Assembly (NCBI GenBank): GCA_029959545.1
Contig: JASCPH010000003.1
Span: 1 to 64,000, forward strand
Direction: 5' to 3'
Origin: Microbacteriaceae bacterium PS02066
GTDB taxonomy: Bacteria; Actinomycetota; Actinomycetes; Actinomycetales; Microbacteriaceae
DNA: 64,000 bases
The notes below the pieces were generated by a model, which was not told where the DNA came from, did not search any database, and saw only the letters and a list, made by a program, of their open reading frames with translations. Each line of letters opens with the position of its first letter. Positions within the stretch are counted from its first letter, which is position 1. Shown here piece after piece: positions 11,653 to 36,669 of this stretch. A program made the translations under genes and the position numbers.

Positions 11653-11669
11653 CGCGGTGTGAGATCGCT

Positions 11670-12137
11670 TCAGCGGCGGGCTGTGAAGAACGCCTGCAAC
11701 TGCGCGGATGCGGCCTGCTCGGCCACTCCCCCGATGACCTCGACGCGATAGGGCAGTCGACGATCGCGCAGCAGGTCGTACATGGATCCCGCGGCTCCCG
11801 CTTTGTCGTCCCACGCGGCGAACACGACGCGGTCGATGCGTGCCTGCAGGATCGCGCCCGCGCACATGACGCATGGCTCGAGCGTGACCACGAGGGTGCA
11901 GCCGCTGAGGTTCCACGACCCGGCGGATGCGGCTGCCCGCCGCAACGCCACGACCTCCGCGTGAGCGGTGGGGTCCCCCGTGAGCTCGCGCTCGTTGCGT
12001 CCCTCCGCGATCGTGCGACCGTCGGCATCGAGCACGACCGCACCGACGGGGACATCGCCGTCCGCCGAGGCGTGCTGCGCCACCTCCAGCGCACGCGCCA
12101 TGGCAGCGTCGTCCGCGGGTCGGTTGGGCAGATTCAC
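11670..12137 (-). CDS. tadA: tRNA-specific adenosine deaminase
   Basis: 155 residues with the zinc-dependent cytidine-deaminase fold: HAE at 59-61 (His zinc ligand, Glu proton shuttle) and PCVMC at 88-92 (two Cys ligands). TadA converts A34 to inosine in tRNA-Arg(ACG). The ARIDRVVFAAWDDKAGA segment and the SMYDLLRDRRL region fit TadA better than guanine deaminase. GTG start at 12137; TAGTCT ends 6 nt upstream (complement of 12144-12149). The IS-derived element begins 44 bp upstream of the start and leaves this promoter intact. Confidence 0.92.
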   Translation of the reverse strand: MNLPNRPADDAAMARALEVAQHASADGDVPVGAVVLDADGRTIAEGRNERELTGDPTAHAEVVALRRAAASAGSWNLSGCTLVVTLEPCVMCAGAILQARIDRVVFAAWDDKAGAAGSMYDLLRDRRLPYRVEVIGGVAEQAASAQLQAFFTARR

Positions 12138-32366: not shown

Positions 32367-33812
32367 TCAACCGAGCTCGTCGGCGGCCGGGATCGCGCGG
32401 GTGCGCGCGAGACGCCGGTACCAGAGTCCGGAGTCCTTGATGGTGCGCTCGAGGGTGTCGAAGTCGACCCGCACCACGCCGAAACGCTTGGCGTAGCCGT
32501 AGCCCCACTCGAAGTTGTCCAGCAGCGACCACACGAAGTATCCGCGCAGGTCCACGCCCTGCTCGAGCGCACGGTGCGCGGCGGTGAGGTGGCGCTGCAG
32601 GTAGTCGACGCGCTCGGCGTCGTGCACCGCGCCGTCTGGCGCGACGTCGTCTGCGAAGGCGGCGCCGTTCTCCGTGATCATGAGCGGCTGCGCGGGGAAC
32701 TCGTCGCGCAGCGCCAGCAGCAGCTCTTCGAGTCCTTCCGGCGCGATGTTCCAGCCCATCTCGGTGTACGGACCCGGCTGCTCGACGAACTCGACGAGCT
32801 GGTCGCTGCCGGGCCAGGCGGTGCCTCCGGCGCTCGCCTTGTGCCCGTCGTTCTGCTGGCGCGGCGAGGAGCCGTCCCACAGGCGCACGGTCGCCGTCGA
32901 GTAGTAGTTGACGCCGAGCACGTCGATCGGCTGGTTGATCTGCGCCAGGTCGCCGTCCTCGACGAACGACCAGTCCGTGACGGATGCGGTGTCCGCCAGC
33001 AGATCGGCGGGGTACTCGCCCTTCAGCAACGGATGCGTGAACGCACGGTTCGCGAGCGCGTCGATACGACGTACCGCCTCACCCGCGTTGTCTCCCACGC
33101 CGCGCAGGACATGGAAGTTGAGGGTGACGGAGTACTGCGGATCGCCCGTCGAGGTGGCGCGCAGCGCCTGGACGGCGCGGCCGTGCGCGAGGTTCAGATG
33201 GTGCACCGCCGCGAGCGCCGCCGCGGGCTCGTGGCGGCCGGGGGCGTGACCGCCCTGACCGTAGCCGAGGTAGGCCGAGCACCACGGCTCGTTCAGCGTC
33301 GTCCAGGTGTGCACCCGGTCGCCGAGCGCTGCACCCATGACCTCGGCGTAGCGCTCGAAGGCATCCGCGGTGGCCCGCACGGGCCACCCGCCCGCATCCT
33401 CCAACGGCTGCGGAAGATCCCAGTGGTACAGCGTCGCCACGGGACGGATGCCGCGCTCGAGCAGCCCGTCGACCAGACGCGAGTAGAAGTCGATGCCGGC
33501 GCGGTTGACCTCGCCCGTGCCGGTGGGCATGATCCGCGGCCACGCGATCGAGAACCGGTAGGCGTCCAGTCCCAGCTCGGCCATCAGGTCGAGGTCGCTC
33601 TCCCAACGGTGGTAGTGGTCGCACGCCACATCGCCCGTGTCGCCGTTCCAGACCCGTCCGGGCGTGTGGCTGAAGGTGTCCCAGATCGAAGACCCGCGAC
33701 CGTCTTCCGCAGCCGCTCCCTCCACCTGATACGACGCCGTCGCCGACCCGAACGTGAATCCGGGAGGGAACACCAGCCCGCTGTCCCGGAAATCCGCGTT
33801 ACCCGTGCTCAT
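32367..33812 (-). CDS. GH1 family beta-glucosidase
   Basis: 481 residues of a (beta/alpha)8 glycoside hydrolase. The start [18 protein letters not shown] is the family N-terminal signature. The acid/base Glu175 is in TLNEPW and the nucleophile Glu381 in MITENGA. No signal peptide, so it acts in the cytoplasm on imported beta-glucosides. The ATG overlaps the stop of the GH31 remnant upstream (ATGA), so it was the second gene of a glycan-use operon. It is now probably read from the promoter and palindrome at 34104-34164. Confidence 0.93.
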
Positions 33813-34102
33813 CGGGTCACCTCCGCAAGGTCTGCGCGCAGCGTCTCGCTGCGTCCGTCGGGCGTGGTCACGATCACCTCGGCGATGCCTTCTCCGCCGG
33901 GGAACACCCGCAGCGTCAACCCCTCCAGGTAATCGTAGTCAGGCCGGTCGTCGCGGGCGCCCCACGGCAGGACGGCGCCGGGGCGCACGTACAGCGGCAG
34001 CGAGTCGACGCCGTGATGCTCGCGGTGCCACCCGCCGACCGCACGCTCCCCGGTCAACAGGTGAGTCCACTCGCCCTCCGGCAGGTAGAACTCCGCCGGG
34101 TT
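33809..34102 (-). pseudogene. GH31 alpha-xylosidase/alpha-glucosidase, C-terminal stub
   Basis: About 97 codons matching the end of GH31 enzymes (YicI-like): [45 protein letters not shown]. The catalytic barrel (normally more than 600 residues upstream) is absent. Family-like sequence ends at about 34102, right against the palindrome. A deletion that kept the promoter/operator and the last part of the gene explains the layout. A TTG start could still give an 82-residue peptide, but without catalytic residues. Confidence 0.75.
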
Positions 34103-34103
34103 G

Positions 34104-34119
34104 GTCGAAGCGCTTCGAC
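34104..34119 (-). promoter_or_regulatory. LacI-family operator-like palindrome
   Basis: Perfect 16-bp palindrome GTCGAAGCGCTTCGAC, with the central CG and AAGCGCTT core typical of LacI/GalR-type operators. On the minus strand a promoter TTGCGC (complement of 34159-34164), 18-nt spacer, TACCGT (complement of 34135-34140) lies just upstream. A bound repressor would block transcription toward the GH31 stub and the GH1 gene. No lacI-type gene is in the window next to it. Confidence 0.65.
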
Positions 34120-34208
34120 GCTGCTTCGTCCAGGACGGTAGAACACGATCGGATGCCAGCGCAATATGTTTCGCGGCGAAAACAACAAATCGGGGACCTG
34201 CGGTGCGT

Positions 34209-34238
34209 TTGACGCAGACACGCCCGGCACGTCATAAT
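34209..34238 (+). promoter_or_regulatory. Near-consensus sigma-70-type promoter
   Basis: TTGACG (34209-34214), 18-nt spacer, CATAAT (34233-34238), then 7 nt to an ATG. It is the best-matching -35/-10 pair noticed in the window. The transcript would start at or next to the ATG of the 33-codon leader frame and continue into the winged-helix gene. Confidence 0.75.
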
Positions 34239-34245
34239 CGGCCAC

Positions 34246-34347
34246 ATGACTGACAATGCACGTTCTCTGTCCGCCTGGGAGGCGAACGGGACTGCCGGCT
34301 CCATGATGGCCGGCCGCATTGTCATGTGTTGTCGAATGTGCCGCTGA
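34246..34347 (+). CDS. Candidate leaderless leader peptide ending in Cys-rich codons
   Basis: 33 codons beginning MTDNARSLSAWEANG and ending VMCCRMCR. The ATG is 7 nt after a strong -10 and has no ribosome site, so it would be translated from a leaderless mRNA. Three Cys codons (TGT TGT ... TGC) fall in the last six positions; TGT is rare in this GC-rich DNA. GTGTTGTC within these codons is complementary to GACAACAC near 34449-34456, and a CCGGC-GGCCGG hairpin lies within the frame. The arrangement resembles Cys-responsive attenuator peptides of mycobacteria. That role is inferred. Confidence 0.55.
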   Translation: MTDNARSLSAWEANGTAGSMMAGRIVMCCRMCR

Positions 34348-34505
34348 CTCGGCCACCCCGTCCGACGCCGCCGCGCATCTGAAGCGCCGCGCGTCCTCTG
34401 CATCCGCTCTGTGATGCTGCGCACCCGGCCCTGACCCTGGGCCGCGACTGACAACACCTGAATCGGGCACGAGTCCCGGTTCCTGTTCCGGCAAGGAATC
34501 CGCAC

Positions 34506-35222
34506 ATGTCCACTCCCGTTGCTCTCGACAACCGCACCTCCGCCCGCCCCGCCCTGCGTCTGGTCACCGACGCTCCCGCAGCTCCCGCTCCGGCGCCCAC
34601 CGCCGAGCGCAGTCTTCCCGCCGGCACCGCGCCGCGCGGCTTCGCGCTCTACGTCGGCTTCGACGAGGCGAAGGCTGCCGCCTCCGGCGTCTCTCTCGGA
34701 ACGATCGTCGAGGCCCTTCGCCGCACACTGCACGATCTCGCTCCCGCCGCAGAGACCTACGCGACCGTCGCCCTCGCCCCCGTCGGCGCCGGCGGTCGCG
34801 ACGTCGACGTCGTACGCCTGGCACTGCACGAGCCCTCGGCGGTGGCCCGCACGAAGCCCGAGATCGAGGTCGAGGAGCGCGCCGAGGCCGGCGTCGTCGT
34901 CGACATCTCCCGCAAGCGCGTGTTGATCGACGGCGAATCCGCCGCCTTCACGTTCAAGGAGTTCGAGCTGCTGCAGTACCTCGTGCTGCGCGAGGGACGC
35001 ACGATCGAGCGCGCCGAGCTGGTCGGCTCCCTCTGGCAGCAGGGCGACGCGGACGCGCCGGGCGAGCGCACGATCGACGTGCACGTGCGTCGCCTGCGCG
35101 CCAAGCTGGGGCGCTTCGAGGACATCGTGCGCACGGTGCGCGGAGTCGGCTACCGCTTCGACCGGCACGCCGACGTCGCCATCCGCTACGGCCACGGCAC
35201 CCCCTCCCCCGACCGTTTCTGA
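34506..35222 (+). CDS. Winged-helix DNA-binding regulator (OmpR/PhoB C-domain type)
   Basis: 238 residues. The C-terminal 95 (about 135-225) form an OmpR/PhoB-type winged helix: AAFTFKEFELLQYLVLREGR, ERTIDVHVRRLRAKLGRFED, TVRGVGYRF. The N-terminal part is not a receiver domain: a Pro/Ala linker is followed by a small alpha/beta segment (GFALYVGFDEAKAAASGVSL, VALAPVGAGGRDVDVVRLAL) with no phospho-acceptor Asp in the right context. It is therefore an orphan regulator with an unfamiliar sensor domain. Its transcript probably begins 260 nt upstream at the leader-peptide promoter. GGCAAGGAATCCGC precedes the ATG. Confidence 0.82.
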   Translation: MSTPVALDNRTSARPALRLVTDAPAAPAPAPTAERSLPAGTAPRGFALYVGFDEAKAAASGVSLGTIVEALRRTLHDLAPAAETYATVALAPVGAGGRDVDVVRLALHEPSAVARTKPEIEVEERAEAGVVVDISRKRVLIDGESAAFTFKEFELLQYLVLREGRTIERAELVGSLWQQGDADAPGERTIDVHVRRLRAKLGRFEDIVRTVRGVGYRFDRHADVAIRYGHGTPSPDRF

Positions 35223-35264
35223 GTCGGTCGGTCCGCTGTCGGCGGGCCGACGTAGGGTGTGCAC

Positions 35265-36239
35265 ATGGATGCGGGCGCCTCGACCATCGGGCGACGCCCG
35301 CCTCGGTCCGCAGCGCCGACGCATTCGCGACCTCGCGAAAGCGTCTACCGCCCTCGCGACGAGGTGGATCTCCATCGAACCGTCGTCTTCCAGCGGCGCG
35401 GGGCGCACGACCCCACGCTCGTCGTGGACGGCCACGTCATCTGGCGCGCGAGCAGAACTCCCGAGGGCATCGCCACCCTCGCTCTTCGCGCGAGCGGCAT
35501 CGGGATCCGCTTGGCGGCCTGGGGCCCCGGCGCCGGCTGGGCGCTCGACCAGGCACCCGCTCTCTGCGGCGCGGAGGACGACCGCGGCGACTTCGACGCA
35601 TCCCACCATCCACTCATCGCCGCGACGCACCATCGCCACCCGGGGCTGCGCCTGGGCCGCACCGACCTCGCCTTCGACGCCCTCGCGAGCGCGATCTTCG
35701 AGCAGAAGGTCACGGGCCTGCAGGCATTCGGGGCCTGGCGACGCATCGTCACCTGGTTCGGCGAGCGCGCGCCCGGCCCCACCCCGCGCCCGATGTTCGC
35801 ACCCCCCACCGTCGACGAATGGCGACGCATCCCCTCCTGGGCGTGGCACCGCGCAGGACTCGAACCACCGCAGTCACGCGCCGTGGTCAAGGCGGCGTCC
35901 CATGGCGACAGCATCGTTCGGGCGCTGGACGAAACCTCGGACAACACCCGGCGCGACTGCATCCTCACCAGCCTTCCCGGCATCGGGCCGTGGACCTCGG
36001 CCGAGACCCGCATCCGCGCCTGGGGCGACGCTGATGCGGTGAGCGTGGGCGACTACCACCTCGCACACGAGGTCGGGCACGCGCTGACCGGTCACCGCGT
36101 GGACGACGACGCCATGCTGGCGCTGCTCGCCCCGTGGGCGGGGCAGCGTCAGCGGGTGATCCGGCTGCTGGCAGCGAGCGGCGTGCACGAGCAGCGCCGC
36201 GGTGCCCGCCTGGCGCCCGAGGACCACCGCTCGCGCTGA
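35265..36239 (+). CDS. DNA-3-methyladenine glycosylase-like (AlkA/HhH-GPD)
   Basis: 324 residues. The N-terminal beta domain is AlkA-like. The HhH-GPD part has FDALASAIFEQKVTGLQAF, the hairpin LTSLPGIGPWTSAETRIRAW and the catalytic Asp in AVSVGDYHLAHEVG. Removes alkylated purines to start base-excision repair. There is no C-terminal Fe-S Cys cluster. The ATG is 6 nt after TAGGGT (leaderless). It follows the winged-helix gene by 42 bp but has its own promoter. Confidence 0.85.
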   Translation: MDAGASTIGRRPPRSAAPTHSRPRESVYRPRDEVDLHRTVVFQRRGAHDPTLVVDGHVIWRASRTPEGIATLALRASGIGIRLAAWGPGAGWALDQAPALCGAEDDRGDFDASHHPLIAATHHRHPGLRLGRTDLAFDALASAIFEQKVTGLQAFGAWRRIVTWFGERAPGPTPRPMFAPPTVDEWRRIPSWAWHRAGLEPPQSRAVVKAASHGDSIVRALDETSDNTRRDCILTSLPGIGPWTSAETRIRAWGDADAVSVGDYHLAHEVGHALTGHRVDDDAMLALLAPWAGQRQRVIRLLAASGVHEQRRGARLAPEDHRSR

Positions 36240-36264
36240 GTCTTCCACCCCCTACGCTGGGCGC

Positions 36265-36489
36265 ATGACGAACTCGAGAACGGGCTGGCCGCGCGGTCGC
36301 ACCATGTGGATCCTCGGCACGCTGGCCCTGTTCGCGGCGGGTGTCGTGGTCGGCATCGCCCTGGGCTCGGTCTGGATCGGCCTGCTCCTCGCTCTGATCG
36401 TGTCCATCGGATGGCTCATCGCCTACGAGTCGTGGCGGGGTCGCAACGTCGGCATCTACGACAGGGACGACGACGGCGCCCAGCTCTGA
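36265..36489 (+). CDS. Small two-helix membrane protein
   Basis: 74 residues. A basic N-terminus is followed by two hydrophobic segments (MWILGTLALFAAGVVVGIAL and VWIGLLLALIVSIGWLIAY) and a charged tail ending DRDDDGAQL. TACGCT ends 6 nt before the ATG. No family recognised. Such short actinobacterial membrane proteins are usually of unknown role. Confidence 0.7.
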   Translation: MTNSRTGWPRGRTMWILGTLALFAAGVVVGIALGSVWIGLLLALIVSIGWLIAYESWRGRNVGIYDRDDDGAQL

Positions 36490-36669
36490 GCGCGCTGACT
36501 GCTTGATCACGCGCTTTTCTTGCGCCTCGCGGCGGAAGTCCACGGGTACTGCCGAGACCTCCACGATGAGTCCATCGCAGCGATGCTCACGCCACCGCAG
36601 CTCCGCGGCCGGGCCGAATGGCGCACCACCCCCGGAGGGCGCGCACAGCCGGCTCCTAGGATGGGGCGC

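Follow-up and report, generated by a model that had tools for sequence, protein, structure and literature searches.

In the window, by which we mean the whole 64,000-nt stretch of Microbacteriaceae DNA that was analyzed, an orphan transcription factor is preceded by a very short frame ending in Cys codons, and we read this arrangement with moderate confidence as a leaderless attenuator of the transcription factor, read by the ribosome, rich in sulfur amino acids, and a variant of the polycysteine attenuators of mycobacteria. As far as sequence comparison can show, the frame is conserved, it is rich in Cys and Met, it contains RNA helices, it pairs with RNA downstream, and its linkage to the regulator is constant. 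Found in this soil bacterium and in most relatives examined, the tiny Cys/Met-rich frame lies in structured RNA and probably enables the ribosome to gauge the supply of amino acids and adjust the regulator accordingly. The locus is laid out as follows.

34209..34238, plus strand: promoter TTGACG-N18-CATAAT, with TTGACG at 34209-34214, an 18-nt spacer and CATAAT at 34233-34238
34246..34347, plus strand: small frame of 33 codons, MTDNARSLSAWEANGTAGSMMAGRIVMCCRMCR, by its position presumably leaderless
34493..34497, plus strand: Shine-Dalgarno-like AAGGA of the regulator gene, from reading the sequence
34506..35222, plus strand: orphan regulator of 238 aa, with an OmpR/PhoB-type winged helix at residues 144-218 (PF00486)

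The promoter and the 7 nt between CATAAT and the ATG at 34246 had been proposed in a first-pass annotation of this DNA, and both were recovered at those positions, the promoter independently by a scan that scored it at 10/12 matches. In 33000-36500 that scan reports 2 sites, whereas 50 shuffles give 0.0 (sd 0.1). Because the spacing from promoter to ATG fits, the transcript would start at or next to the ATG. The aligned loci of the genus have a similar −35/−10 pair at an equal distance before the small frame. Over 136 loci, a TATAAT-like hexamer with at least 4 matches ends 7 nt before the ATG in 66 and 6 nt before it in 21; 4 have one at 1-4 nt, and 45 have none by the strict rule. The stop of the frame ends at 34347, leaving a gap of 158 nt to the regulator gene, and the window's genome holds a single copy of the frame.

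Conservation of the frame, of the place where it starts and of its Cys codons goes beyond chance in both genus and family, the opposite of the lack of conservation that the first-pass annotation had named as evidence against its idea. Of 198 Microbacterium genomes, a search with the 33-residue peptide matched 194 at E ≤ 1e-4 and 196 at E ≤ 10, two of these being weak (E 0.5 and 0.2), with no match in two genomes. The regulator is found in 198/198 of the same genomes at E ≤ 0.001, a few of them via other winged-helix proteins only. Named records matched by the regulator come nearly all from Microbacterium, and the window is assigned to this genus accordingly. Across Microbacteriaceae, a 20-row profile matches 219 of 299 genomes, from 73 of 85 genera, at E ≤ 0.1, where matches close to the threshold may be chance. 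A search of 297 genomes across the order gave 22 strong matches, all within Microbacteriaceae, and 13 matches outside the family with E from 0.009 to 0.1. Many of the loci numbered L001-L141 were fetched by the frame itself; the loci fetched by the regulator alone (L001-L030 and 80 named records) make up the unbiased set. The frame is in 29 of those 30, L021 being cut by the contig end, and in 78 of the 80 named records (73 parsed, two further parses being false, and 5 recovered); of the remaining two, the sequence of L223 begins 120 nt ahead of the match, and L217 is the other. From L001-L141, 136 loci were parsed at once, and the regulator follows the frame in 133 of these; L092, L122 and L138 have the frame with an MS start, and L061 was a chance match. 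Neither Pfam nor NCBIfam has anything for the small frame, and no covariance model of Rfam 15 matches 33500-35500 at E ≤ 1.

The 3' end of the window's frame reads ATG TGT TGT CGA ATG TGC CGC TGA, with two TGT and one TGC among its Cys codons. The suggestion that the Cys end is written in rare TGT codons holds for two of the three, TGT making up 5 of the 34 Cys codons in the 19 long ORFs of the window, but Cys 32 is TGC. Cys amounts to 0.4% of the 8473 codons of those ORFs. The 124 distinct main peptides have 2-4 Cys, with several Cys codons near the stop.

A further question is what has become of the frame in the genomes that the profile does not match. Of 80 such genomes in the family, 20 were inspected; 19 have the regulator, and in 15 of the 19 a short, diverged frame with the same kind of end lies upstream of it. 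These frames end in MCACRMCCCC, MCCRMCA (twice), ACCRMCCC, ACRMCR (twice), MCCRMHA, CACRRMCCSN, PCRMRA, MCSRMCS, MCMCMCMCR, RSKMCA, MRRMCA, RNRMCM and RRRMCR. The other four (L287, L293, L297 and L301) have the regulator and no recognizable frame upstream. The 15 diverged frames average 3.3 Cys and 4.1 internal Met each, and Cys makes up 11% of their residues versus 0.4% in the genes of the window; three of the 15 have just one or two Cys, and two have one. That Cys and Met are kept or gained as the rest of the peptide diverges would fit a read-out of Cys or of sulfur amino acids. The end with four Met-Cys repeats, MCMCMCMCR, which has no CGA, belongs to a small-genome relative (L298:1-1101, genome G210).

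The N-terminal region of the regulator finds orthologs in two more families of the order, here f6 and f7, in 10 genomes each (149 searched). In f6, frames are present in 6 of 10 loci and end in CCRMHA, CCRMQA, CCRRMQA or CGRRMPR, and none was recognized in L179, L180 and L194. In f7, 5 of the 6 loci fetched (of 10) have a frame, ending in a C-V-R pattern as MLCVRD, MLCVRCR, MRCVRGLR or MLCVRDLTC, while L189 has none. The frames as a group span 14 to 48 codons, and all bring R-M in frame just before the stop.

Among 126 distinct frames the start position is fixed, the length varies in whole codons from 32 to 34, and the stop (TGA, TAG or TAA) and the Cys codons (TGT or TGC) both vary, yet many other synonymous sites are frozen. 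One explanation would be that the nucleic acid is what is conserved, either as a structured RNA or as a protein-binding site (TGTCGAATG), with the frame incidental. The frozen sites speak for it, and so do three helices found inside the coding stretch.

34252..34323, plus strand: helix C, 34252-34259 with 34316-34323, pairing codons 3-5 with codons 24-26 and closing a junction
34266..34290, plus strand: hairpin A, codons 7-15, with 79.1% of cells paired and recovered in consensus folds
34294..34314, plus strand: hairpin B, GCCGGC-loop-GCCGGC, with Met codons in the loop and 82.8% of cells paired

Hairpins A and B sit inside helix C, and consensus folds place hairpin A in a shifted register in other genera. 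In 90 sequences helix C has changes on both sides at 8/8 of its pairs, with 75.6% of cells paired. Taken together over the 90 frames, the internal helices have 79.2% of cells paired versus 31-51% when the partners are slid, and a covariation score of 0.167, where slid partners give 0.051-0.083 and shuffles 0.127. How many pairs are changed on both sides does not distinguish them, the number being 14 against 12-15 slid, with 71 of 500 shuffles reaching 14. The helices explain much of the synonymous fixation. In one f6 locus, L184, the GTG at which the frame should begin is also not in register with the motif, whereas an ATG farther in is. Against an incidental frame, the stop and the third positions of the Cys codons vary while their meaning stays, so the reading matters, and frames as different as 14 and 48 codons in length all have R-M in frame shortly before a stop. 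We regard conservation of the nucleic acid alone as very improbable.

The loop of hairpin B also offers a pairing of its own. Its sequence AUGAUGAUG (34300-34308) complements CAUCAUC(AUG) at the regulator start (34498-34508) in many relatives; in the window, this loop holds just two Met codons and CATCATC is absent. In Microbacterium, CATCATC occurs in 29/40 loci with MMM versus 5/29 without (p 7e-6), and elsewhere in 21/50 versus 2/8 (p 0.46), and the association is probably confounded by descent.

The first-pass annotation had also proposed that the Cys codons pair with a segment about 115 nt downstream, and the features concerned are these.

34326..34333, plus strand: segment 1, GTGTTGTC, covering the Cys codons and complementary to GACAACAC at all 8 nt
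34450..34457, plus strand: segment 2, GACAACAC, the partner of segment 1, 116 nt from it
34460..34482, plus strand: hairpin GAATCGGG...CCCGGTTC before the ribosome-binding site, with no T-run after it (from the sequence, a scan and a fold)

Over 127 leaders, the codons for C-C-R-M pair with the region behind the stop with a mean probability of 0.53, versus 0.25 when the leader is dinucleotide-shuffled, and the probability exceeds 0.5 in 77/127 of the leaders' own sequences versus 2/127 shuffled (Wilcoxon p 5e-17, over loci that are not independent). The pairing thus survives as a prediction, but the exact register is one of several. Folding 69 Microbacterium leaders to a consensus favors a shifted register and predicts a GAACCC...GGGTTC-like hairpin at the place equivalent to 34460..34482. 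An RCARCA motif is found 25-85 nt before the regulator start in 56 of 127 leaders and is absent there in 71. Where it is present, its purines fit the Cys codons. At the second Cys, TGC meets only G (17/17), and TGT meets A in 17 cases and G in 22 (Fisher p 0.001); at the first Cys, TGC again meets only G (6/6; Fisher p 0.006), neither value being corrected for descent. When leaders are swapped between loci, the longest-duplex score is not separated, at 19.1 for own and 18.6 for foreign leaders, because the downstream sites of the loci resemble one another. In f6, 4 of the 6 loci with a frame set TCGAATGC opposite GCATTCGA, and in f7 an exact complement of 9-11 nt follows soon behind the stop in 3 of 5 frames (CGTTCGCGACC, CGTCCGCGGCC, CGTTCGCGA), so that the letters differ and the predicted pairing stays. 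The folding results support a Cys-codon segment that pairs with a site some 100-140 nt downstream in a register specific to the lineage.

The question is then how a ribosome on the frame would act on the gene behind it. The T-run terminator of a classical transcription attenuator is not there, as the scan gives 0 terminator-like sites in 33000-36500; a terminator ending the transcript before 34506, which the first-pass annotation had held would tell against it, is by the same result not found among T-run terminators. In a thermodynamic folding model of 119 leaders, masking the RNA over the length of a ribosome, at one or the other Cys codon or at the stop, gives no consistent change in exposure of the Shine-Dalgarno or start; local pairing before the ribosome-binding site rises a little, from 0.336 to 0.366-0.376, and to 0.357 with the ribosome at the stop. 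The ribosome-stalling attenuator first proposed for this locus keeps its conserved leaderless-type frame, its terminal Cys and its pairing, but modeled stalling leaves the Shine-Dalgarno and start unexposed. Behind the frame, C exceeds G in 127/127 leaders, with means of 42.5% and 24.8%, and along the window 260 of 6386 sub-windows are as skewed to C over G. Rho prefers C-rich, G-poor RNA. Since no T-run is found, unmasking of the ribosome-binding site is not supported by the folding model, and the leader is C-rich, we favor Rho or the coupling of transcription to translation. In our view the likeliest output step is termination inside the C-rich leader, either Rho-dependent or coupling-based, and less likely ones are a T-run terminator and exposure of the Shine-Dalgarno.

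We infer translation, stalling, the Cys signal, its sign and the output step, and the chain of events would run as follows. A 70S ribosome would read the 33-codon leader directly on a transcript starting at or next to the ATG, and would come to an end with many Cys and Met codons (MxxxxxMCCRMC). The RNA being read would itself be folded, in helix C and hairpins A and B, and its Cys segment would be paired with a site upstream of the ribosome-binding site of the regulator. When sulfur amino acids or their charged tRNAs run short, the ribosome would slow or halt on the Cys (and Met) codons, both this fold and the degree to which the C-rich, G-poor RNA behind the frame is exposed would change, and with them the amount of full-length mRNA or protein of the regulator.

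The most invariant codon is not a Cys codon. Arg 30 is CGA in 126/126 distinct frames, and CGA-ATG is their most constant part, although CGA accounts for 58 of the 697 Arg codons (8.3%) in the genes of the window. It is kept in 13/15 diverged frames and 6/6 f6 frames; in f7, 3/5 frames have CGA-ATG, farther from the stop, and 2/5 lack it. The partner segment differs between lineages, and therefore pairing does not account for the invariance of CGA. This codon is read only by tRNA-Arg with inosine 34, which the product of tadA makes. The tadA gene is about 1-3 kb from the regulator in 8/8 other genomes of the family that were compared. The order tadA - upp - small frame - regulator is seen in several other genera (L038, L045, L051 and L060), with upp lying between tadA and the regulator in L060 and L045. 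The window's own tadA occupies 11667-12113, at a distance of 22 kb.

These figures for CGA, its independence of the varying partner and the nearness of tadA would all suit a codon-specific pause, in which the ribosome must slow down or arrest at CGA with ATG behind it, and Cys and Met are part of a nascent arrest peptide. L298 and L299, however, have no CGA in the frame despite tadA in the genome, two f7 frames do without CGA-ATG, tadA in the window is far away, and the gene order may be unrelated inheritance; we hold a codon-specific pause to be quite unlikely. A combined sensor of a Micrococcales type is a speculative extension that we doubt, in which a leaderless frame ending Cys-Cys-Arg(CGA)-Met-Cys would have two parts: Cys/Met supply would set the ribosome occupancy of the leader, an obligatory pause at the inosine-read CGA would time the refolding of the large leader RNA, and the regulator, present in nearly the whole family, would get its input at the RNA level, not via a sensor kinase.

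Polycysteine-encoding leaderless short ORFs of mycobacteria were reportedly studied experimentally by Canestrari et al. in 2020. Our frame has in common with them a short ORF, here presumably leaderless, Cys near the stop, a position before the presumed target, and no T-run terminator. It differs in having an orphan transcription-factor gene as its presumed target instead of a Cys or sulfur operon, in being Met-rich as well, with an invariant CGA-ATG and inside a conserved multi-helix RNA, and in its lineage. Passages of PMC13236596 and PMC9094748 cite the experimental work on the mycobacterial ORFs, and a passage of PMC4633059 indicates that they were first seen there. The part of Seliverstov et al. 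2005 (PMC1262725) that deals with candidate Cys leader peptides of Actinobacteria describes runs of Cys codons near the stop, as here, with no conserved terminator hairpins, and suggests Rho; those candidates lie ahead of cys operons and of cbs, in Mycobacterium, Propionibacterium acnes and Bifidobacterium, and that part reports no pairing of the Cys codons. A full-text literature search that included the peptide letters, with subscription papers mostly outside its coverage, found no title or abstract describing the element.

The other precedent is whiB7/wblC, where, according to the relevant passages of PMC13236596, an upstream ORF controls a transcription factor as it would here, whiB7 being induced by stalling in that ORF; there the signal is antibiotic stalling and the regulator is of another family. 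By analogy, the frame might sense translation stress in general, with any slowing in it, from an antibiotic or an uncharged tRNA, altering the leader and raising the regulator, and Cys not the specific signal. The nature of the controlled gene agrees with this, and the least Cys-rich frames (RRMCA, RRRMCR) retain both position and CGA-ATG. The Cys content of about 11% in the diverged frames against 0.4%, together with runs such as CCCC and MCMCMCMC, exceeds what a general sensor would need, and we judge such a sensor unlikely. A secreted or antimicrobial peptide was also considered and rejected, as the RNA helices, the pairing in the leader and the fixed place before one regulator fit control in cis.

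If the attenuator reading is right, a transcription factor in nearly every genome of a large family would get its signal via a ribosome on a leader of 14 to 48 codons, and an uncharacterized regulator would gain a testable input, either sulfur amino acids or the speed of translation. Leaderless Cys attenuators would then extend beyond mycobacteria and beyond biosynthetic operons, and the question is posed of why every one of the 126 distinct frames compared uses the same rare codon, CGA.

The regulator's winged helix is well matched (PF00486, E 3.3e-20), and its best structural matches are tied: GlnR of S. erythraea (8hig), with Z 14.5 at 46% identity, and PhoB of E. coli (1gxq), with Z 14.4. 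The likeness to GlnR and other OmpR/PhoB-type regulators is in the winged helix; unlike them, the regulator here does not have a receiver domain of normal length, and its N-terminal region is unlike any Pfam family. That region (about 43-118) has no significant Pfam match, and the structure model has a mean pLDDT of 67.5 with the N-terminal part unreliable. The domain had been called an unfamiliar sensor; unfamiliar it is, by Pfam and for want of a confident model, but sensing is only putative.

Direct repeats of the OmpR type lie across or ahead of the promoter at 34209-34238 and those of relatives, as with GACGCATT, repeated 10 bp apart in Microbacterium. In many Microbacterium promoters the repeats overlap the −35 region, which suggests that the regulator may control itself. 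An operator-like repeat was sought in 59 genomes and gave 9 matches in 8 genomes, of which 5 are at the element's own promoter; the other 4 lie elsewhere and carry 2-3 mismatches, none is in the window's genome, and we infer no regulon from them. Beyond its own promoter, no operator tying the regulator to sulfur genes was found in the 59 genomes. Among the loci L181-L194, those of family f6 have direct repeats, TTGTTACTTGC...TTGTTACATGC, at or before the promoter. As for the neighbors in the window, a glycoside hydrolase family 1 gene (33812-32367, minus strand) is divergent to the small frame, and the gene downstream of the regulator (35259-36239) weakly resembles DNA-3-methyladenine glycosylase 2 (NCBIfam E 0.00028, below the cut-off).
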